DNA of 28,003 nt from a virus (IMGVR_UViG_3300033153_012017:1-28003); one strand, 5' to 3'. Counted from the first letter of the stretch, positions 16,639-27,279 are shown. Numbers and translations are program-made. The notes: a model not told the origin generated them from the letters alone.

Positions 16639-17661
16639 TTAGTTACAAGTTAGGAATGCCATTTTCACATTCTTTCGAGTAGCATAAACGCGATTCCAGT
16701 TAGCCGCCGCTTCAAGTTCAGCGTGAGTGGCAGATTGACCCGCAACACTGGCAGACAGGAATTCAAAGCCAGTTGGATGGATAATTTCAGTAACACGGGA
16801 GTAAATTACTTCTTCACCACCACCATTACCTGCCGCTTCGTTACGATCAACCGCAGACGCATTAACAGGTTGTGCAGTACCGTAACCAAATGCACCAGCC
16901 GCAAACAACATGACTGTGTAAACGACCCCGTCAGTGGTACCTGCGCGAGATGGCATGGCATCATCAACAATGACACGATAACCCAGATAAGTAGGAATGC
17001 TCACTTCGCCACGTGCATCAGGAATGTAGGCAATCAAATTCAACTTCTGCAGTTGTGTATACTGAACAGAGTGCATAGCGATCATAGTGACATCGCCTGC
17101 TAAATCACCCAGAGTAGCCGCCGCATCAATTACCGCATCAGCATGGATTCGAGTAGTCGCAGACGCACCTGCCGCAGTTTCACTGTGAATAGCAGTGGTC
17201 ATTAAACCACCGTCAGAAAGATCATCCAGCAAAATACCAGTAGAAGAGCTTAAAATACGGTTTTGAGTATCCGTAGCCCAGTATTTACCAATACGATTTG
17301 CGATTGCACCCAGTGGGTCACCGTTGCGAATTGATAACTCACGAGCAAGATCCATAATAGACCAAGACTGGTTCTTCATCGCTTTACGATAAATCTGCTT
17401 ACCATCGGTGATTTTGTTAGGCTCGGAATCAGTTGCCTGAACGTCGCTAGAATAGTTTGGCTCAATTGTATTATCTAAACCAAGGAAGAATGGGATTTCT
17501 CCAATAAAACCACCTGCGGCGGCCATTTCATTCAACATGGGGTTATCTTGAATAACACCGGCTTGTAGGAAGTTGTTTTGCTCGGCCGCCGCTTCTTGAA
17601 CTGCTTGCTCAAACGGGGTGGCGTCGTAAATATCGGAAAGTGTGACTGTTGCATAGGCCAT
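16639..17661 (-). CDS. Major capsid protein
   Basis: A 340-residue protein starting MAYATVTLSDIYDATPFEQAV. The features fit an HK97-fold coat protein: an N-terminal arm, GGFIGEIPFFLG, a spine-helix region (AMKNQSWSIMDLARELS, GDPLGAIANRIGKYWATDTQNRIL), and an A-domain with DAVIDAAATLGD, MIAMHSVQYTQLQKLNLI and GYRVIVDDAMP. The C-terminus (LEAAANWNRVYATRKNVKMAFL) is also typical of one common coat family. It has its own promoter region and terminator, good ribosome spacing (GGAG), and noticeably higher GC than the fibre genes. Structural identity is clear; the exact family name is not. Confidence 0.92.
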   Translation of the reverse strand: MAYATVTLSDIYDATPFEQAVQEAAAEQNNFLQAGVIQDNPMLNEMAAAGGFIGEIPFFLGLDNTIEPNYSSDVQATDSEPNKITDGKQIYRKAMKNQSWSIMDLARELSIRNGDPLGAIANRIGKYWATDTQNRILSSSTGILLDDLSDGGLMTTAIHSETAAGASATTRIHADAVIDAAATLGDLAGDVTMIAMHSVQYTQLQKLNLIAYIPDARGEVSIPTYLGYRVIVDDAMPSRAGTTDGVVYTVMLFAAGAFGYGTAQPVNASAVDRNEAAGNGGGEEVIYSRVTEIIHPTGFEFLSASVAGQSATHAELEAAANWNRVYATRKNVKMAFLTCN

Positions 17662-17962: not shown

Positions 17963-19027
17963 ATGGAACAATTCATATTAATTAATAATGCCAAATTGCC
18001 AGAAGATGTATTTGGTACCGATCCGGATACCATTACTAAAGTATATAAAAAATTGGTGATGCTGGTGCATCCAGATAAGCATGCGCTTAAAGATCAAACC
18101 GAGCAGGATAAATACAGTCAATTATTTCAAAAACTTCAGAAATTAAAACTCGAAGCGGATATTCGAGTGAATTTATCGATTTACGGCACGACCAAGAAAA
18201 CAAAAATTGATTTTGAACCATTTACTATCAAAACGAAACGTCACGAATATACGTTAACGGAATTGTTGGAGCATGGGGACATTTCTAATGTTTGGCGTTG
18301 CCAAAATGAACTCGGTGATCAATTGATTTTGAAGTCCGTTAAAAATCCAGTGAATAATGATCTGGTTAAAAACGAAATCAATATGATTAAAAAAATTAAT
18401 CCTGAAGGTGATGATAAATTATACGCTGAATTTTTCCCTGACGTCATTGATTCATTTGTCATGATGGACGCTACCAAGAAAAAATCACAAGTCATTGTTC
18501 AATCGGATTATAACGCAAAAGGTTATGTTGATTTATTTACGGTTAAGGAAGTTTTTAAAAATAACCCAGATGATGAAATTGTTAGCCGGCATCTGGTTTG
18601 GATCTTCAAACGATTGTTGATGACGGTAGGTTATTTACATAATCGTAGTTTAGTACATGGCTCGGTCATACCTCCCCATGTGCTCGTTCATCCCGTTGAT
18701 CATTCTATTAAATTACTGGACTGGTCATACATGGTGAAAGGTAGTGATAAAATTAAAGCAATTTCCAATGCGTACGTTGATTTTTATCCAGTTGAAGTGA
18801 TGAATAAAGGGGGTATTTCAGGCGTAACGGATATTTACATGATCGTTCATACTATTCAATGGCTACTTCCAGAAGATCGGATGCCGTTATTTATGAAACG
18901 GTTTTTCAAAGGTTGTTTATCTCACAGGCATTACGATGCGTGGGGATTACATGCCGAGTTCGACGGAATTGTTGAAGCACATTACGGCGAACCAAAATAC
19001 ATAAAATTAGACACACAGGAGAATTAA
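17963..19027 (+). CDS. J-domain fused to a degenerate protein kinase domain
   Basis: A 354-residue protein. Residues about 1-70 form a J-domain with the HPDK motif at 36-39, which in DnaJ proteins stimulates Hsp70 ATPase. Residues about 95-340 resemble a protein kinase: LILKSV with the ATP-binding Lys124, a helix C Glu138 (NEINMI), and a DFG-like DWS with Asp253. The catalytic loop reads HGSVIPPHVLV (232-242): the HRD aspartate is Ser234 and the catalytic Asn is His239. This predicts a pseudokinase or an atypical kinase. It opens the plus-strand island, has a GCACAGGA ribosome site, and is followed by an unknown gene and a vWA gene. Function unknown: possibly a chaperone-recruiting scaffold that senses nucleotide. 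Confidence 0.8.
   Translation: MEQFILINNAKLPEDVFGTDPDTITKVYKKLVMLVHPDKHALKDQTEQDKYSQLFQKLQKLKLEADIRVNLSIYGTTKKTKIDFEPFTIKTKRHEYTLTELLEHGDISNVWRCQNELGDQLILKSVKNPVNNDLVKNEINMIKKINPEGDDKLYAEFFPDVIDSFVMMDATKKKSQVIVQSDYNAKGYVDLFTVKEVFKNNPDDEIVSRHLVWIFKRLLMTVGYLHNRSLVHGSVIPPHVLVHPVDHSIKLLDWSYMVKGSDKIKAISNAYVDFYPVEVMNKGGISGVTDIYMIVHTIQWLLPEDRMPLFMKRFFKGCLSHRHYDAWGLHAEFDGIVEAHYGEPKYIKLDTQEN
19011..19020 (+). promoter_or_regulatory. Extended ribosome-binding leader ACACACAGGA
   Basis: A perfect 10-base leader overlapping the end of the kinase gene, 8 bases before the ATG of the 110-residue gene. GAGAATTAACATG, covering the last bases of the leader and the start codon, is repeated exactly before the vWA gene. 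Confidence 0.8.
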
Positions 19028-19028
19028 C

Positions 19029-19361
19029 ATGTATTTTGAGGTGGATGGATGGAATAATTTTTGTCGGATTTTTGAATTACCAGCGGCCTACCCAAGTGAT
19101 TTTTGCATGCCGGCTATACCAGTGAACTTTAATATGGTTGATTGGTTTAATCCAATCCAAGATCTTCCAGTCCCCGCTGTGAGCAAGGAACTTTGGGTAG
19201 AAAAGGTTGGTGAAATTGAAGTTAAGAAAATTGACATAAAAACACTACAGATAAGTCTATTGTCATTTTTAAAAGGCAAGCAATACGTTAAACAAGGAAG
19301 ACAATATCTTGTATTAACTGATTTCGGAGCAAGCTTCACCTTTGAAGCTGATCCACAATAA
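19029..19361 (+). CDS. Unknown protein between kinase-like and vWA genes
   Basis: A 110-residue protein that I do not recognise. It starts MYFEVDGWNNFCRIFELP, has a Pro- and aromatic-rich middle (FNMVDWFNPIQDLPVPAV), and ends in a beta-rich part (YVKQGRQYLVLTDFGASFTF). No signal peptide or membrane segment. The C-terminal QYLVLTDFG is reminiscent of a small beta-barrel but not assignable. It has the strong ACACACAGGA leader and sits one base after the kinase gene stop, so it is co-transcribed and probably translated with its neighbours. A role as an adaptor between the kinase-like and vWA proteins is only a guess. Confidence 0.75.
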   Translation: MYFEVDGWNNFCRIFELPAAYPSDFCMPAIPVNFNMVDWFNPIQDLPVPAVSKELWVEKVGEIEVKKIDIKTLQISLLSFLKGKQYVKQGRQYLVLTDFGASFTFEADPQ

Positions 19362-19367
19362 CATTAA

Positions 19368-19377
19368 ACACACAGGA
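19368..19377 (+). promoter_or_regulatory. Extended ribosome-binding leader ACACACAGGA
   Basis: A perfect copy, 8 bases before the ATG of the vWA gene, in the same context as the copy at 19011. Confidence 0.8.
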
Positions 19378-19385
19378 GAATTAAC

Positions 19386-20363
19386 ATGGGCGGTTCAAGT
19401 TGGAACGACGCATTTTATGCAACACGAGCAACATCACGAGTAGATGCAGGTGTATCTGCATTTGCTTACAGTGATTCAGTTAAATCAGGATCAATCAGTG
19501 CTAAAACACATGAAGATCTCGATCCCAAAGGCGTGATCCGAGAATCACGTGATAGTGAAGATCATCCTAACTCCAATGCTATTGGGGTAATGTTCGATGT
19601 AACGGGCTCAATGGGCGGAATTCCTGTTGAATTACAGAAAAAATTACCCAGTTTATTGGGCGTATTGACTCGAAAAGGCTATATCCCTGATCCCCAGATT
19701 TTATTCGGTGCTATCGGGGATTATCGGGCTCGTGATGTTTCGCCATTACAGGTAGGTCAATTTGAATCCGGTAATGAAATGGAAGATGATCTGGAAAAAG
19801 TGTATCTGGAAGGTTCTGGCGGTGGCAATATGGGTGAATCGTATGATTTGGCCATGTGGTTCTTTGCCAATAAAACCAAGATAGATTGTCTGGAAAAACG
19901 AGGTGATAAAGGTTATCTCTTCACCATTGGCGATGAGCCTTTCTTTGATACGGTGCGTAAAGTCGATGTTAAGGCGGTATTTGGTGATGATCTGCAGGCA
20001 GATATCCCATTAAAGGAAGTGGTTGAACAACTGCAGGAAAAATATCATTATTTTCATATTATTCCTTCCGGTGGTTATCGCAGTTCTAGTTCCAAAGACG
20101 GTTGGACTAAATTATTGGGTCAAAATGTATTAATACTGGATGATAGCAATGCCGTTTGTGAAACCATTGCGATGGCAATTGGTGTTAATGAAGATTCCAT
20201 CGACATTGACAATGCTGTAGTGGACTTGGCGGCGGAAGGTTATGATGCCCACGCCATCGCTTCAGCCACTCGTGCAGTAGCGACTATCGCGGGTAATCGC
20301 CCTGCAGTAGTTAGTGGTCAATTGCCAGCTGGCGATAGTGAAGATGATGTCGCTCGTTTGTAA
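19386..20363 (+). CDS. von Willebrand factor A domain protein
   Basis: A 325-residue protein. The vWA fold covers residues about 64-270. The metal site (MIDAS) begins with DVTGSMG at 71-77 (DxTGS in place of DxSxS). Its likely second loop is in GSGGGNMGES (143-152) and the third is Asp183 in FTIGDEPF. These proteins bind a divalent metal and a partner acidic residue, usually as part of a protein complex, often with kinases, chaperones or AAA ATPases. The C-terminal tail is Ala/Asp-rich. No signal peptide or membrane segment, so cytoplasmic. It shares its leader with the preceding gene. Context suggests a vWA/kinase-like/J-domain complex; partner and target unknown. Confidence 0.85.
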   Translation: MGGSSWNDAFYATRATSRVDAGVSAFAYSDSVKSGSISAKTHEDLDPKGVIRESRDSEDHPNSNAIGVMFDVTGSMGGIPVELQKKLPSLLGVLTRKGYIPDPQILFGAIGDYRARDVSPLQVGQFESGNEMEDDLEKVYLEGSGGGNMGESYDLAMWFFANKTKIDCLEKRGDKGYLFTIGDEPFFDTVRKVDVKAVFGDDLQADIPLKEVVEQLQEKYHYFHIIPSGGYRSSSSKDGWTKLLGQNVLILDDSNAVCETIAMAIGVNEDSIDIDNAVVDLAAEGYDAHAIASATRAVATIAGNRPAVVSGQLPAGDSEDDVARL

Positions 20364-20517
20364 AAAGTTTAGCGGTTCGGATGACATACCCTATAGTCGT
20401 TAAATTTCGCTTTCCTCTGATGAATGAACTAACGAAGAGGCGTTGAGTCGGTAACGTAATGAAGATGGACGTGAGGCCAAGAGACTACCGGCAACCTCAC
20501 ACACTTAAATTAAAATT
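20364..20517 (+). ncRNA. Candidate structured RNA / 5' leader element
   Basis: This 154-base gap is richer in GC than the AT-rich gene that follows and is full of complementary segments. TCGTTA (20397-20402) pairs with TAACGA (20430-20435). CCTCT (20414-20418) pairs with AGAGG (20436-20440). GAGG, TTG and CGGTA (20437-20453) pair in order with TACCG, CAA and CCTC (20486-20498). GTGAGG (20471-20476) can instead pair with CCTCAC (20495-20500), so the last segment has two mutually exclusive partners. That is the pattern of a switching leader. No T-run follows, so control would be on translation or processing rather than termination. I do not recognise a known riboswitch, ribozyme or tRNA. Confidence 0.45.
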
Positions 20518-20685
20518 ATGAACAAAGAGTATACTCGTTTAATTTATGAATTGAATAAAACATACCGTATTGAATTAGCGGTTAATTCTCTTAAATTATT
20601 AAACGATTATAAAAAGAAAGAATTTGATCCCAATCGAATTAGAAAAGCAATAAATATTGCTATACAGAACCAAAGTTATTTTTAA
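20518..20685 (+). CDS. Small basic helical protein of unknown function
   Basis: A 55-residue reading frame, MNKEYTRLIYELNKTYRIEL and so on, ending AIQNQSYF. It is Lys/Asn/Ile-rich, predicted helical, with a basic patch (DYKKKEF, NRIRKA). It fills the space between the structured segment and the aldolase-like gene and ends 16 bases before the next ATG, so its stop is well placed for an operon gene. Against it: no Shine-Dalgarno sequence precedes the ATG (CTTAAATTAAAATT), unlike every other gene of the island. It may be translated only when the leader refolds, or be a decayed gene. Confidence 0.5.
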   Translation: MNKEYTRLIYELNKTYRIELAVNSLKLLNDYKKKEFDPNRIRKAINIAIQNQSYF

Positions 20686-20701
20686 AATTAAAGGAATTGA
20701 A

Positions 20702-21742
20702 ATGAATATGTACATTGTGGGTGGTACGTTCGATGTTGGACGAGGTAAATTCTCGCATTTTATAGAAGTTATGGGCAATTACTTTCCTAAGGCTATTACC
20801 ATCAACGGGGGTAACATTAACGATTTATATTTATTCAGGCCACATGATATCGACGTGTTAATTTGGATGCCTAACGTTGATAACGCTGAAGATAAGATCT
20901 TACCCAGACTCAAAGTTATGAATCCTAAAATGGTACTTGTTTCCAGCAAACGGGTCATTGAAAAGAAGTACAGTAATTATGATCTGGTTAATCGCCTGAT
21001 TAATACTCGATCTAATTTAGGAATTATTATTGATAAAATGAGATTTAATTATTGGTTTTCACTCATCGATCCATTGGGTAATATTTTTTGTAGAAGTTTT
21101 CAATTAAAATCAATGCTCCCTGTTTTATCTCAACGTATTGATGAATTAATGGAAGTAAAACGAATAAGTTCTCAACAACTGGAATTTGATATCGATCCTG
21201 ATTCATCTCCACCTTCAGCTGATTTTTTAGAGGCGGTGCGTTGTTACGGCACCGAATTTAGCTCATATGTTCAGGCAAATAACCCTGATCGATTTTTAGG
21301 CAATGCTTCTACTCGATGTGAATGGGGATTTCCAGCAGAACGTCGAACTGACCATATCTGGGTCAGTCGTCGTAATGTTAATAAGGAAAGTGTATCAGCT
21401 GATGACTTTGTTAAGGTTTACTTGTGTGCCGGTAAAGTTCGATACCTTGGTGCAAATAAACCTTCTGTTGATTCAGCAATTCAAATTGAATTATTTGAAC
21501 GGTTCAAAAATATTAATTACATTATCCATGGTCACTGTTACGTAGATGGTGCAAAGTTTACCGAGAGTAAATTGCCTTGTGGCGATTTGAATGAGTTGCA
21601 TGAAATAAATAAGTTAGCGCCTGATCAGAACAGTACGTTCGTAGTAATAAATTTGCTGGGACATGGTTGTTTGATTATGTCTAAAACTGTTGAAAATTTA
21701 TATAAAGTAAAACTGCAAAGCAGACCTTTGCTGGAAGATTAA
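20702..21742 (+). CDS. Rossmann-like domain fused to class II aldolase/adducin-like domain
   Basis: A 346-residue protein from MNMYIVGGTF; the ATG at 20702 has AAGGA six bases upstream. An in-frame ATG at 20657 overlaps the small gene and has no ribosome site. Residues 1-150 look like a Rossmann-type nucleotide-binding or flavoprotein-like domain (VGGTFDVGRGKF, DIDVLIWMP, KMVLVSSK). Residues about 175-330 match class II aldolases: GNASTR at 200-205, KPSVD at 253-257, the metal-binding HGH at 276-278, and LLGHGCLI with His321 as the third ligand. The usual catalytic Glu is Asp257. The zinc site looks intact, so a real lyase, epimerase or related reaction is possible. It sits directly before the adenylosuccinate synthetase-like gene and probably acts with it. 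Substrate unknown. Confidence 0.72.
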   Translation: MNMYIVGGTFDVGRGKFSHFIEVMGNYFPKAITINGGNINDLYLFRPHDIDVLIWMPNVDNAEDKILPRLKVMNPKMVLVSSKRVIEKKYSNYDLVNRLINTRSNLGIIIDKMRFNYWFSLIDPLGNIFCRSFQLKSMLPVLSQRIDELMEVKRISSQQLEFDIDPDSSPPSADFLEAVRCYGTEFSSYVQANNPDRFLGNASTRCEWGFPAERRTDHIWVSRRNVNKESVSADDFVKVYLCAGKVRYLGANKPSVDSAIQIELFERFKNINYIIHGHCYVDGAKFTESKLPCGDLNELHEINKLAPDQNSTFVVINLLGHGCLIMSKTVENLYKVKLQSRPLLED

Positions 21743-21780
21743 CTACCAATTTGGTAATTATTGGTAGTTAATTGGTAGTT
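21741..21780 (+). repeat. Alternative hairpins from three copies of AACTACCAAT/ATTGGTAGTT
   Basis: AACTACCAAT (21741-21750) is followed by two copies of its exact complement, ATTGGTAGTT (21760-21769 and 21771-21780). The left arm can pair with either, giving loops of 9 or 20 bases. The element fills the gap to the ribosome site of the synthetase-like gene. It may be an operator, an mRNA stability or processing element, or a translational control. It lacks a T-run. Confidence 0.6.
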
Positions 21781-21799
21781 AAAACTTAAAGGAATTAAA

Positions 21800-23065
21800 A
21801 TGAAAAAAGCATTTATTGTCACCGACCTGATGTTCGGTGATAGCGGTAAAGGTACCATTACGGATTATCTGGCAAAAACTCACGATGCCAGCTTAGTAGT
21901 TAAATTCAACGGTGGTTCGCAGGCGGCGCATAACGTAGTGCTACCGAATGGTACCCACTTCACGTTCTCTCAGTTTGGTAGTGGCTCCTTCCAAGGTGCA
22001 AACACTTACTTATCTGAATATGTGTCGGTTGATCCACTGGCCATGTTGGCTGAAGGTGATGCTTTATCTGGGATTATGGATACGAATGCATTTACACTTA
22101 TGGGTGTTAATGCGAAATGCCCAATAATTACCCCGTATCATAAAGCGTATAATCGTGCTCTGGAAGAACATCGAGGTGATAGTCGGCATGGTAGTTGTGG
22201 TGTAGGACATGGTATTTGTGTTGAGATGCAAAAAGATGGAACTGCTCCTACTCTTTACTTCGGTGAATTACGGTCATCATCTATTGTATGGCGTAAATTA
22301 CGTGAGATCTGCGAACACTTAGTCAAAAAAGCATGGAGTTCTGGATTTTCTATCAGTGGTTTGGATCATTACGAGATCAATAACGACTTCAAAAAGTTGT
22401 ATGACTTAGTTACTGAAGTTTATAACCCAAACCCCATGTTGAATAATTGCCAAACCGTTATTTTCGAAGGCGCCCAAGGTGCATTGTTGGATGAATGGCA
22501 TGGATTCAATCCCCATACTACGTGGAGTACCACTACTCGTAAGAATGCGGATTCTATTATCAAGAAATACACACAGGAATTTGGACTTATCAACGATGAG
22601 GTAAAAGTGCATAATTACGGTGTTATGCGTACTTACATGACCCGTCATGGAGCAGGACCATTTCCTTCGGAAACTAAAGAGCCAATGAAAGGTTGGATCT
22701 TCGATGATCATAACAGTACGGGAGACTGGCAGGGTACGTTTCGTACGGGATTTCTGGATTTACCGTTGTTGAAATACGCTTTAAGTTTTGCGGGTGTGAA
22801 TAGTATTGCGTTGACTCACTGGGACACGATGTCTGCTTACTTTTCATACGTAAAGTCTTATGAAGATGGTGATACTTTTTTAAAAAGAAACGGGACTCCA
22901 AATTTATTTCAATCTGAAGATATGATGTGGCACTTAAAGGATTCCAAACCAGTATATACTCAATACAAAGGTAATATCAGGGAATTGATCGATGATCAAT
23001 TCCCCGATACACCAGTATCTATTATTTCCAGTGGCCAGACATGGGAAGACAAAATAGAAGTTTAA
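21800..23065 (+). CDS. Adenylosuccinate synthetase paralogue (PurA/PurZ superfamily)
   Basis: A 421-residue enzyme of near normal length. PurA enzymes join L-aspartate to IMP using GTP; phage PurZ does so on dGMP on the route to 2-aminoadenine. Conserved here: GDSGKG (13-18, the GDEGKG loop, catalytic Asp14 kept), His44 (PurA His41), FEGAQG (222-227), TRHGAGPFPSE (281-291), and the C-terminal IISSGQTWED. Changed: Glu after the Asp is Ser15, the IMP-contact GTTGRG reads GSCGVG (131-136), the arginine-rich aspartate loop GRRRRTG is replaced by GDWQGTFRTG (308-317), and the guanine-recognising KLD is HWD (340-342). Substrate or cofactor therefore probably differs from PurA. No dATP hydrolase or DNA polymerase is in the window, so a Z-genome is unproven. 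AAGGA precedes the ATG. Confidence 0.85.
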   Translation: MKKAFIVTDLMFGDSGKGTITDYLAKTHDASLVVKFNGGSQAAHNVVLPNGTHFTFSQFGSGSFQGANTYLSEYVSVDPLAMLAEGDALSGIMDTNAFTLMGVNAKCPIITPYHKAYNRALEEHRGDSRHGSCGVGHGICVEMQKDGTAPTLYFGELRSSSIVWRKLREICEHLVKKAWSSGFSISGLDHYEINNDFKKLYDLVTEVYNPNPMLNNCQTVIFEGAQGALLDEWHGFNPHTTWSTTTRKNADSIIKKYTQEFGLINDEVKVHNYGVMRTYMTRHGAGPFPSETKEPMKGWIFDDHNSTGDWQGTFRTGFLDLPLLKYALSFAGVNSIALTHWDTMSAYFSYVKSYEDGDTFLKRNGTPNLFQSEDMMWHLKDSKPVYTQYKGNIRELIDDQFPDTPVSIISSGQTWEDKIEV

Positions 23066-23541
23066 CTAGTTGGATAAATAACAATGTTGTCCACTGAACC
23101 TACAAAGTTCAAGTCAGCCCGAAATGTTATATCATTGGTACCGGTACAGAGAATATTCTCTTCAAATGTGCCGGTTGCCGCTCGAAGTGTACCAAACTCG
23201 GTACCTAATCCGATTGAAACATTCCCAGCGGTGTACGCCGTAACTTCAAACACCACTCGATATGTTTCGCCGACGATTAATAAAGATGCGTCACTTAAAT
23301 CACTATTACCAACTTGAGTGCCATCGGAAGTTGCTACGCCAGAACCAATGAGCCAGCCGGTGCCACATATCCAGTTCACACCACATACTGTGTCAAAGAC
23401 AGGATCAGTGAGCACACTCAATGGCGTATCTAAATATCGAGCGTAGATGATTGCCTCACGACGCAGGCGGTCGTAGTGGATCGCCGCCTGCCATGCTCGT
23501 TTCAGCTTTGCTGTGGTGTACTTACCAATTCGTCTTAACAT
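23062..23541 (-). CDS. Small head-region protein with C-terminal lectin-like beta-sandwich
   Basis: A 159-residue protein. Residues 1-40 are a basic helix (MLRRIGKYTTAKLKRAW). Residues about 45-158 form a jelly-roll, carbohydrate-binding-like domain: GTGWLIGSGVATSDG, VGETYRVVFEVTAY, NVSIGLGTEFG, and the closing SVDNIVIYP, the usual last strand. A similar unit lies in the J-like tip protein. Position between the scaffold and capsid genes suggests a head decoration or fibre protein that could bind host surface glycans; this is inference. It ends tail-to-tail with the synthetase-like gene, the two stop codons overlapping. I cannot name a family. Confidence 0.72.
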   Translation of the reverse strand: MLRRIGKYTTAKLKRAWQAAIHYDRLRREAIIYARYLDTPLSVLTDPVFDTVCGVNWICGTGWLIGSGVATSDGTQVGNSDLSDASLLIVGETYRVVFEVTAYTAGNVSIGLGTEFGTLRAATGTFEENILCTGTNDITFRADLNFVGSVDNIVIYPTS

Positions 23542-23552
23542 TATTGTACCTT

Positions 23553-24353
23553 TTAGGTTGTGATCCCTGCTGATTTCTGCATTTGTGCCGCCAACACAGG
23601 GTTGGTGCGCGTCAATTTAGCCTGAAGCGTAATATTCTTGGTATCCGCTTTCCAAGGATTCACTTGATTACCACCCTTACCTCCGGAATTCGGAGGAATA
23701 CCACTACCACTATTCTGCATTGGAAATGCGCCAGAGAACGTTTCATTCGCTTTTAATTCGGCCACTAAGTCATTGATCGTAAACACTTCACCGTTAGTTG
23801 AGTTGATCCGCTGATTACCTTCAGCATCTACCACTTGAGTCGTGTAGTCACCGGCTTCAGATTTGACGGTCTTCAGATTAGGCTTAATGTGAGGTAGTAA
23901 CAATGTGGCGTTACCATGCTCTTTGTCAATTGCCTTGACTGCTACGTTCTCAATCAGTTCTTTGTCCAAAGCACTTTGCAGGCCGGTCAGCTTAGTTGTA
24001 TAGTCATTGGTTAATGTCGTGATCTCAACGGAGTGAGCATCGGTCATACTGCCTTTGAGAGTATCCCATTCGCCGGCGGCGGCTAAAGCATCTTCTTTGG
24101 CTTTCGCTTTTTGTGTTTCCAGTTCGTCTTTTTCAGTGAGGAATGTATTGTAAGCATCCATATCCACATTGTCGGGCATCTGGTTCTTTTTCAGCTTATT
24201 GATCTGATCCAGTAACTTGGTTTTGTTAGTGGTCAGGCCAGTAATTTTACTGTCCACCAGTGCATCTGCTTCAGACTGCGCGGCGGATAGGAAATTACTT
24301 AGATCAACGTCGGTACCGAGTTTTTCTGCCAATAATTCTTGTAATGTTGCCAT
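23553..24353 (-). CDS. Head scaffolding protein (putative)
   Basis: A 266-residue protein. Residues about 40-150 are a long coiled coil (LLDQINKLKK, FLTEKDELETQKAKAKEDAL). Residues about 150-215 contain IENVAVKAIDKEHGNATLLLPHI and VFTINDLVAELKANETF. A Gly/Ser/Asn-rich linker (GSGIPPNSGGKGG) and a basic C-terminal helix complete it. This layout is common in phage scaffolding proteins, whose C-terminus contacts the coat shell. It lies between portal and capsid genes as expected. There is no protease motif, so head maturation cleavage is not suggested here. It has the ACACACAGGA leader. Confidence 0.78.
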   Translation of the reverse strand: MATLQELLAEKLGTDVDLSNFLSAAQSEADALVDSKITGLTTNKTKLLDQINKLKKNQMPDNVDMDAYNTFLTEKDELETQKAKAKEDALAAAGEWDTLKGSMTDAHSVEITTLTNDYTTKLTGLQSALDKELIENVAVKAIDKEHGNATLLLPHIKPNLKTVKSEAGDYTTQVVDAEGNQRINSTNGEVFTINDLVAELKANETFSGAFPMQNSGSGIPPNSGGKGGNQVNPWKADTKNITLQAKLTRTNPVLAAQMQKSAGITT

Positions 24354-24385: not shown

Positions 24386-25915
24386 TTATACGGGTTGTGC
24401 TGGGTTGTCAATTTCATTTCCTGTTTCTAAACTATTTCCGGTGGTGTTATTTTTAGCGGGCTGATTGTTGGCACCACCTTCATTCTCTTTCACTGCCAAC
24501 TCTGACTGCAGATTCTCTTTGAAAAACGGAGGTGGATTTTCCTTGATCAGCTCCAGTTCTTCTTCCATTGTACGGGTAGAGGTAATGATCTCCCCCTCTT
24601 TCATCTTGGTAAACATGGTATCAAAACTGATAGCTCCATCTAACCATGATTTGACCAGCGCAATTTGCTCGTTAGCTGGAAGTTCAACAATTATGAAATC
24701 TCGATTTAAGGTAAACGTCATGTCTTCTGAATAGGTATCGTTGTCCCAGTCCATTTTCATCTGGATCAATTCTTTCATCTGAGAAGACAGATTGTCCACA
24801 ATCGTTGCAATGAGCGATGTTTGCGCACTGGTTCTGATGATCACACTGGAGGCGGTTTCACGTGAAACAGCCTGAGGTGATAATATCTGGGCACCAATAG
24901 TTGCCATGGTGTTTTCTAGTTTGCTAATGTAGTTAATATGAGCCTCATAACTCTTGCCGCTGAACTCCATCATACCCACTTTCGCCGCATCATTGGCAAT
25001 CAACCATGCTTGGGTGGGACCAATACTACTGGGCGCATTTTCGTCACTGGGGTCAACACCGGTCGCCCATGGTGTGGGTAACGCTGTCCAGTGAAGCAGG
25101 TAAACCAAGTCAATTACACGCTGGTCTACCGCGATATTCAAGTCAGAAATATCCTGAAGCGGTGATTTCTCAACGGTAAAGTTGTTGGGTTTAATGCTGT
25201 GGATGATCAAAGGGAGTTTCGTTAAAAAGTCACCGTTCTTAGTCGGAAGACTGGTTGAGACCAGTTCCTCGTTTTCATCACCGTCATCGTGAAGGGTGAG
25301 ATAACGACGCAGGCGTACCACTCGCTTCGACTCACCTTGATCGTTACTAATTGTGGTGAAGTCAATAACCGTATGATACTGCACATCGGCGGTGCTAAAT
25401 TCATCATCGATTGATTGTTCTTCTACCATTTCTTTAAAAATAAACCGTGATAACTCAGGATACCCTTTGGAATTATCCGTTAAGAACGATACAAATTGTT
25501 CTGGCTTGACCAATTTGTAGAACGAACGATTGAGTACGTTACTCCAGTCAAGCATTGTGGCGCAAAACCCGTCTTCAAAGACAAATTGTGTTATTTGTTG
25601 GCAGTACTCTTGTAATGTATTGCCTAACAAGTCAACATTCTTCTGATCAAAACTGTCAGCACCGGTCAAAATTATCGGCTTGCGAAAAATAGTCCCCGTA
25701 AACCCATCAACCACTTTCGGATACAGTGTATAGACTTGAGCCATATCAATCATGGTGTCATAGTCATCGTCACTTTGACCACTTAATCTGCGGAAATACG
25801 TTTCTCGATTCGCAAACATCGCCGCTTTACCACCACGAATGTCTCGATTTTGTCGTAAAATCGCTTGCATATTCGTTATTTCTGCAGACATTGGGAAGGT
25901 TGTACTAGTTGACAT
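24386..25915 (-). CDS. Portal protein, DUF4055-type
   Basis: A 509-residue protein. The N-terminal part has NRETYFRRLSGQSDDDYDTMI and YPKVVDGFTGTIFRKP, the opening of the DUF4055 portal family. The core has WTALPTPWATGVDP and the wing/crown part has SAQTSLIATIVDNLSSQMKELI. An Asn/Glu-rich disordered tail ends the protein. As the portal, it forms the dodecameric ring at one capsid vertex through which DNA is packaged by the terminase. It lies directly after the terminase gene and before the scaffold gene. A GTTATACAAA motif lies in the 71-base gap before it. Confidence 0.88.
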   Translation of the reverse strand: MSTSTTFPMSAEITNMQAILRQNRDIRGGKAAMFANRETYFRRLSGQSDDDYDTMIDMAQVYTLYPKVVDGFTGTIFRKPIILTGADSFDQKNVDLLGNTLQEYCQQITQFVFEDGFCATMLDWSNVLNRSFYKLVKPEQFVSFLTDNSKGYPELSRFIFKEMVEEQSIDDEFSTADVQYHTVIDFTTISNDQGESKRVVRLRRYLTLHDDGDENEELVSTSLPTKNGDFLTKLPLIIHSIKPNNFTVEKSPLQDISDLNIAVDQRVIDLVYLLHWTALPTPWATGVDPSDENAPSSIGPTQAWLIANDAAKVGMMEFSGKSYEAHINYISKLENTMATIGAQILSPQAVSRETASSVIIRTSAQTSLIATIVDNLSSQMKELIQMKMDWDNDTYSEDMTFTLNRDFIIVELPANEQIALVKSWLDGAISFDTMFTKMKEGEIITSTRTMEEELELIKENPPPFFKENLQSELAVKENEGGANNQPAKNNTTGNSLETGNEIDNPAQPV

Positions 25916-25986: not shown

Positions 25987-27279
25987 TCAAAACCCACCCA
26001 GTTTCTTTGCACGAGAGTCCAATTTCCTGACCGGATAGAGGAAATACACCATATACCCAAACGAATCATTAATATCGTCAATGGAACTATTCACCAGCTT
26101 CTCCGGCTGACCAGTGTTCGCTGAATACACGTGTTGCTCTAACGATTCACACAGTGATTTGACCAATAGCTTGTTCACGCGCACGGTGTGGTGCTCAAAG
26201 GCGGCGTTCACAGACATGACTCTGTCTTTTATCAATGGATTCTTAGAATGCGACTTAATGTGAAACCCCGCCTTCCTCAAGATCGTAAAGTCCGATTGAC
26301 TGGCTGACTTGGAGCTGGTCGAACGGCCACTGGAGTCTGGGTAGATGTATATCGGTGAGCGCGGGTACTTATTACGCAATACCTCAACAATCTCGTTGGT
26401 ATCGTTGAGATGATACAGCCCGTCAATAATGTGAAGCTCGGTTACGGGTTTGGCTTGCGGATCATTGTTGTTTAATGGTCGGGGTCGTTTCACCGCCACG
26501 GTGATGGAACAGTCCAGTACGTTAAAGTCAACGCCACAGTGTATTTCTTCACCTTCACGATACACGGAGTCTGTGTGCTGGTCGTCACGGTCAAACGCAT
26601 AATAGACGGTTCCAGACTGCAGGTTTGTAAAAATACCGTTAACGTATGCCTCAAACAAGTTGGATGGATAGGTAGACTTCATGGTCTCAATATAACCATC
26701 AGCCAGATTATGTTCATTGGTGTACGTGGAGGCAATGATGAGCTCACTGTCTTTTAACGGGGTTTGTTTCCAGTTAATGTAGGAAAACTTATAGCCCTCA
26801 GGTGTTGAAAATACAAATACCTGATTCTTGGTGCCGGACGGTGCGCTTTGGCGCATACGTCCAATGGCTTTTTTCAATACCAGTTCGGCTTTTTCCGTGG
26901 GGATCGTATCAATTTCATCCAGAAATACAGATAGTACATTCAGACCAATTAAGGTGGTCGGGTCGGTCATACTGCGACAATAAATATTACCATGCCCTTT
27001 AATGGCAATTACCGAATCTGATTTATTCAGTGTGTACTCTAATCCCATCTCTTTCATCATTTCTTCGATGAGCGGATAGAAAATACTTTTAATCAGACTA
27101 TGCGTGGGTGCCATGTACAATAAATTGCAAGTGGGGTTACTGATTATGGTGGAAAGCAAACGTACCGTACCCACATGGGATTTTCCAGAGCCCATCCCCG
27201 CACAAAAGTTGACAAACTTAGCCTGTGATACGAAGAACTTGGACTGGGGTACCGATAATTTGATTTTAAGTTCAGGCAT
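25987..27279 (-). CDS. terL: Terminase large subunit
   Basis: A 430-residue packaging motor. The ATPase domain has the Walker A motif GMGSGKSH (about residues 29-36), YMAPTHSLIKSIFYPL, and Walker B VFLDEIDTIP (about 138). FVFSTPEGY is the coupling motif. The nuclease domain has the acidic HCGVDFN (about 250) and IYPDSSGRS (about 311), which supply metal ligands of the RNase H-like fold. It cuts and pumps DNA through the portal. It begins 3 bases after the ribbon-helix-helix gene. The packaging type (cos or pac) cannot be decided by eye. Confidence 0.95.
   Translation of the reverse strand: MPELKIKLSVPQSKFFVSQAKFVNFCAGMGSGKSHVGTVRLLSTIISNPTCNLLYMAPTHSLIKSIFYPLIEEMMKEMGLEYTLNKSDSVIAIKGHGNIYCRSMTDPTTLIGLNVLSVFLDEIDTIPTEKAELVLKKAIGRMRQSAPSGTKNQVFVFSTPEGYKFSYINWKQTPLKDSELIIASTYTNEHNLADGYIETMKSTYPSNLFEAYVNGIFTNLQSGTVYYAFDRDDQHTDSVYREGEEIHCGVDFNVLDCSITVAVKRPRPLNNNDPQAKPVTELHIIDGLYHLNDTNEIVEVLRNKYPRSPIYIYPDSSGRSTSSKSASQSDFTILRKAGFHIKSHSKNPLIKDRVMSVNAAFEHHTVRVNKLLVKSLCESLEQHVYSANTGQPEKLVNSSIDDINDSFGYMVYFLYPVRKLDSRAKKLGGF

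Follow-up and report, generated by a model that had tools for sequence, protein, structure and literature searches.

The plus-strand island at positions 17963-23065 of the window, by which we mean the whole stretch of viral DNA that was analysed (a 28-kb virus record of 28,003 nt), is almost certainly a mobile copy of a conserved cassette that encodes a J-domain pseudokinase, a von Willebrand A (vWA) protein and a PurA-like homologue of adenylosuccinate synthetase. We are just as confident that this three-gene module is a functional unit. Its constant pair in viruses is the vWA protein and the PurA-like enzyme.

The window has no close DNA relatives among 50,697 phage records. Its minus strand carries a typical tailed-phage module, with the genes for the large terminase (25987-27279), the portal (24386-25915), the head scaffolding protein (23553-24353; phrog_206, 2e-29), a 159-aa protein (23062-23541; phrog_30593, 8e-5) and the major capsid protein (16639-17661; phrog_247, 6e-94), together with tail terminator, minor tail protein, tail chaperone, tape measure and tail spike genes. 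Between the scaffold and capsid genes, five genes run on the plus strand: the J-domain pseudokinase (354 aa, 17963-19027; phrog_3043, 5e-40), an orphan ORF (110 aa, 19029-19361) beginning 1 bp past it, the vWA protein (325 aa, 19386-20363; phrog_2971, 7e-73), a fusion of a CoaB-like Rossmann domain with a class II aldolase (20702-21742) and the PurA-like enzyme (421 aa, 21800-23065), the end of which overlaps the 159-aa gene by 4 bp. The J-domain, kinase-like, aldolase-like and synthetase-like assignments of an earlier sequence-only reading were borne out by Pfam matches to DnaJ (4e-5; score 24, below the cut-off of 27.8), Pkinase (2e-4, also below cut-off), Aldolase_II (4e-8) and PF00709 (1e-52). 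GC skew shifts to positive over the plus-strand block. A short self-complementary stretch (22975-23009; a minus-strand self-match of 86%) lies near the 3' end of the PurA-like gene.

The scaffold and capsid genes are ~5.9 kb apart in the window. In 40 viral capsid relatives, collected independently of the island, they lie on the same strand with a gap of 13-218 bp and no cassette, and the gap is 43 bp in the nearest relative (L289, with a 52% identical capsid). The vWA gene was also absent from 15 of 15 whole records of capsid relatives that were checked, although such records may be fragments. Because the relatives' gaps are so much shorter, the block must have entered the window's lineage as an insertion into the head-gene module, in agreement with the earlier description of a plus-strand island between minus-strand scaffold and capsid genes. 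This position, together with the proposal that MoxR-vWA pairs serve virion assembly in jumbo phages (PMC7824862), would fit a set of capsid assembly chaperones built from the J-domain and vWA proteins. We consider this highly improbable, since the cassette runs antisense to the head genes, is missing from that site in the 40 head-module relatives, has other positions in other phages and also occurs in bacteria. Another cassette (L031, 7294-8699) is likewise antisense and adjoins a head-tail adaptor gene, much as in the window.

Linkage of the cassette genes was analysed in vWA-anchored scans of IMG/VR (80 loci) and GTDB (80 loci), to which annotated phage loci were added to give 86 viral loci. 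A scan of viral contigs with the single vWA protein returned no matches; the alignment-based scan did find loci. The PurA-like gene was found downstream of the vWA gene in 83/86 viral and 77/80 bacterial loci. A reciprocal scan starting from the PurA-like enzyme, run to avoid anchoring bias, yielded 76 new viral loci, 73 of which had a vWA gene within 6 kb upstream; the three exceptions have <0.8 kb of flank, so that all 73 with enough flank carry it. Bacterial and viral loci share the gene order and strand, the median gaps being no more than 67 bp, and divergence of the vWA and PurA-like proteins is congruent (Mantel r of 0.78 in viruses and 0.84 in bacteria; 0/2000 permutations). Among annotated phages, ~190 mycobacteriophages keep all three genes (J-kinase, vWA, PurA-like) in this order within ~4 kb; in the Rhizobium Cuauhnahuacvirus and Vibrio Va1-like phages the vWA and PurA-like genes are neighbours and the kinase is missing. 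Unrelated accessory genes that came together by chance would be a fair description of the orphan ORF and probably of the aldolase-like gene; for the three core genes this reading is refuted by the linkage counts and the congruent divergence, and as an explanation of the island it has next to no probability. The outcome that would have refuted the earlier reading, genes that never co-occur elsewhere or that separate freely, is clearly contradicted for the core genes, which occur together well beyond the window in a conserved order; the aldolase-like gene does not travel with them. Eleven viral loci (L004, L007, L021, L041, L042, L049, L057-L059, L073 and L084) have a TROVE (Ro60-like) gene no more than ~6.5 kb from the cassette.

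To characterise the PurA-like enzyme, we aligned 155 members to E. coli PurA and read residue roles off the alignment, the roles of residues other than Asp13 and R303 being those in PurA structures. Asp13 occupies its column in all 149 members that have a residue there, His41 is likewise present in every lettered row, and D333 in 152/155; Lys16, Gln224, Thr239 and the GDxGKG loop are also kept. By comparison with PurA, N38 is replaced by Gln in 147/149 members, T129 by Cys or Val, and the TTGRRR aspartate loop (T300-R305) by the motif [WFY]QGxF, which is one residue shorter and has its Gln in 153/155; the R143 column is poorly aligned. In PurA, R303 of this loop contacts aspartate (PMC8342488). 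A set of 105 cassette members forms one clade (SH-aLRT 99) apart from PurA and PurZ, as obtained by a quick method with long outgroup branches. The PurA-like enzyme scores well below the cut-offs of the PurA equivalog models (NF002223, 146 bits against 402; TIGR00184, 126 bits against 396). Retention of Asp13 and His41 with an altered aspartate loop and IMP-phosphate pocket indicates that the enzyme is neither housekeeping PurA nor PurZ; ordinary adenylosuccinate synthetase activity is unlikely for the clade.

The name '2-aminooxy adenylosuccinate synthetase', carried by phrog_1211 and by RefSeq mycobacteriophage records for genes of this clade, would place the enzyme in the PurZ-type 2-aminoadenine (Z-DNA) pathway. 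That reading is scarcely credible: replacement of Asp13 by Ser is the mark of phage PurZ, found in all phage members (PMC12884076), and the PurZ of both phiVC8 and S-2L has Ser at this position in our alignment, whereas the cassette clade keeps Asp13 and groups apart from PurZ, and the PurA-like enzyme reaches 32.8 bits against the cut-off of 300 of the NCBIfam PurZ model NF038379. PurZ identity was rejected on these grounds and the PurZ-type naming is likely a misannotation, so that the database name pointing to Z-DNA is corrected here. The retained Asp13 and separate ancestry also contradict the earlier suggestion of phage DNA base modification where this is taken as the 2-aminoadenine route. 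A modified purine precursor of another kind for phage DNA or RNA, carrying an N6-adduct, would suit PurA chemistry, which places a group at C6, and has a precedent in PurZ as a PurA fold recruited for base modification (PMC8342488). It is nonetheless unlikely, as bacteria carry the same cassette on their chromosomes together with a Nudix regulator, and no modification-specific polymerase, kinase or hydrolase is linked to it.

The vWA protein has no match in Pfam and no sequence relative in the PDB. Its AlphaFold2 model (pLDDT 91.7) matched integrin and von Willebrand A domains in Foldseek, which upholds the original vWA call. The MIDAS residues D71, T73 and D183 are present in 60/60 relatives and S75 in 59/60, and the metal site, judged by these residues, is intact.

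Scores of the vWA protein and the J-pseudokinase stay below every curated cut-off of Pfam and NCBIfam. In the J-pseudokinase family the HPD motif of the J-domain is retained in 112/116 members, and the catalytic Asp of the HRD motif is replaced by Ala, Gly or Ser in 116/116 (HGS in the window). An active protein kinase was thus rejected, as the term pseudokinase had anticipated, and because HPD is retained while the catalytic Asp is lost, the protein is predicted to be an Hsp70-docking pseudokinase. The kinase gene is present in 72/80 bacterial and 43/86 viral vWA loci. In viruses, the slot upstream of the vWA gene holds the J-pseudokinase (44 loci), a coiled-coil protein of ~120 aa (29 loci) or a Met-rich protein (7 loci), and never two of the three. 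Both replacements are unannotated (for example, L090, 9570-9914, for the coiled-coil protein and L004, 8222-8935, for the Met-rich one).

Bacterial cassettes, which occur in soil bacteria, are patchily spread over Actinomycetota, Planctomycetota, Chloroflexota and Myxococcota, being found in 14/61 genomes of the Actinomadura family, 9/149 Planctomycetota and 1/198 evenly drawn Actinomycetota. This patchiness in the Actinomadura family and the Planctomycetota and the interchangeable partner upstream of the vWA gene are what a conflict module would be expected to show, in which the vWA protein and the pseudokinase would gate the PurA-like protein, itself acting as a switch or effector that depends on NTP; phages would carry such a module against competing phages or as captured host defence. 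In keeping with this, a large clostripain-family (C11) protease gene lies immediately ahead of the vWA and PurA-like genes in a Chloroflexota genome (L103, 3930-6488), a visibly similar gene does so in a second (L130, 324-2885; only the L103 gene was profiled), and the pseudokinase faintly resembles the MAD6 and MkoA kinases. PADLOC matches for the kinase are weak, however; the vWA, PurA-like and aldolase-like proteins match none of the PADLOC models, the catalytic residues appear enzymatically constrained and no constant nuclease or toxin partner was seen. We therefore regard a conflict module as somewhat unlikely.

The remaining parts of the island do not belong to the cassette. The aldolase-like ORF as listed opens at TTG 20657, and ATG 20702 is its likely start. 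Its product scores 33.9 bits against PF00596 (cut-off 22.2), matches CoaB (2gk4/1u7u) and fuculose-1-phosphate aldolase in Foldseek and has an HxH...H metal site (H276, H278 and H321) that is invariant in seven sequences. Besides the window, only L086 has the cassette near this gene, and the aldolase was rejected as a core member on that basis; it is best described as an optional rider. The other relatives, from Lak and other huge phages, have no adjacent cassette, and a PurA homologue is absent from Lak and other phages with the aldolase-like gene. Two records with this gene (G413 and G414) have PurZ-type enzymes instead of the cassette PurA-like enzyme. PurZ-type (Ser13) PurA homologues were seen in phages with the CoaB-aldolase gene at L091 (15316-16734; the same as L199) and at L198 (1465-2664), the 472-aa one of the two being very divergent; the L198 phage also has a vWA match, broken into three pieces. 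No relatives of the 110-aa orphan ORF were detectable, and a possible 55-aa ORF (20518-20685, plus strand) has one weak match (E=0.03). The intergenic stretch at 20364-20517 on the plus strand had been proposed to encode an RNA, for which no support was found: it contains no tRNA, Rfam gave no match with the threshold relaxed to E=5, and its folding is no more favourable than that of shuffled sequence (z=+1.1). A structured RNA was hence rejected, and of the seven plus-strand genes or elements first described the five genes stand and the RNA element does not.

The neighbours of the cassette point in a further direction. Of the 80 bacterial loci, 68 encode a Nudix protein with an NrtR-type winged-helix regulator domain, usually right next to the kinase gene; regulators of this architecture can also sense ligands other than NAD, such as arabinose. 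In phages, NADAR, NadV or NadM genes adjoin some cassettes or lie inside them. In a 416-kb phage contig (L012, 9243-15611) the cassette is interleaved with NAD genes in a run of NrtR-like Nudix-HTH, vWA, NMN-adenylyltransferase/Nudix-like, NadV, PurA-like and a pseudokinase without the J-domain, and overlapping or abutting genes for NADAR (L020, L039 and L066/L068) or NadV (L081) occur elsewhere. Most viral cassettes, including those of the window and the mycobacteriophages, have no NAD genes in the examined stretch. NadV and NADAR are common in large phages (PMC9503650). The control comprised nine loci anchored on nrdD and thyX, too few for a background rate, one of which also had NADAR. None of the conserved neighbour clusters, examined without an ARG profile, was identified as an ADP-ribosylglycohydrolase. 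This context is suggestive of NAD+/ADP-ribose biology, which the earlier reading had not mentioned; its suggestions of altered host purine pools and of nucleotide-sensing defence may still apply.

Our preferred mechanism, to which we give a probability of roughly 0.4, is that the vWA protein and J-pseudokinase control a PurA-like enzyme that modifies a purine nucleotide tied to NAD+ or ADP-ribose. Since Asp13, His41, Lys16 and Asp333 are kept, the enzyme would be active and GTP-dependent, activating the C6 oxygen of a purine; since the whole clade has other residues in place of the PurA aspartate loop and 5'-phosphate contacts, it would act on a substrate other than free IMP and aspartate. The NrtR-like Nudix regulator in bacteria and the NADAR, NadV and NadM genes beside phage cassettes make a nucleotide derived from NAD+ or ADP-ribose, or an otherwise 5'-extended purine nucleotide, the likeliest substrate class. 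From the chemistry of their domains, the vWA protein may bind the enzyme or a client through its metal site and so control the enzyme, and the J-pseudokinase may carry the complex to the Hsp70 of the cell. In phages, the set could act on purine and NAD+ pools to aid host takeover or counter-defence. The proposed coupling of a protein-regulatory to a nucleotide arm thus survives in the linkage of vWA and PurA-like genes, often with the J-pseudokinase, and the aldolase drops out of it. In a very unlikely variant, the vWA protein and J-pseudokinase would present a client protein and the PurA-like enzyme would couple a purine nucleotide through C6 to a protein amine or an ADP-ribose adduct; if true, this would be an unknown ligation of nucleotide to protein, or a reversal of ADP-ribose edits, in both phages and bacteria.

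Known systems share single features with the cassette. The PurZ/PurZ0 2-aminoadenine pathway (S-2L, phiVC8 and Wayne) likewise has a phage-borne PurA homologue, but with Ser13 and without a vWA or J-pseudokinase partner, whereas the cassette enzyme has Asp13 and a replaced aspartate loop. Housekeeping PurA (PF00709) shares the fold, GDxGKG, Asp13, His41, Lys16, Gln224, Thr239 and Asp333; the cassette enzyme differs in its aspartate loop and IMP-phosphate contacts and in having a vWA neighbour in all testable viral loci. ARG-centred systems regulated by Nudix or WYL proteins also combine a Nudix-HTH regulator with vWA in actinobacterial and planctomycete operons, but their core is an ADP-ribosylglycohydrolase and a phosphatase, and adenylosuccinate synthetase is unmentioned in their description (PMC9503650). 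MoxR-vWA and vWA-centred conflict systems (PMC7824862, PMC7159879) pair vWA with an NTP-using partner, as does the cassette, in which this partner is PurA-like rather than an AAA+ ATPase and the J-pseudokinase replaces the described adaptors. The phage NAD+ biosynthesis genes NadV and NadM (PMC9503650) lie inside or beside some cassettes and are not a constant part. We found no account of the J-pseudokinase, vWA and PurA-like set in the open-licence literature, though subscription journals could hold one; genome announcements merely list the genes.

Because the ~190 sequenced mycobacteriophages that carry the cassette infect M. smegmatis mc2 155, a common laboratory strain, it is directly testable. 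An ordered three-gene set with a substrate pocket rebuilt clade-wide, kept across hundreds of diverged phages and four bacterial phyla, would be expected to have a specific role, and may link a purine enzyme to the NAD+/ADP-ribose biology of phages and bacteria.
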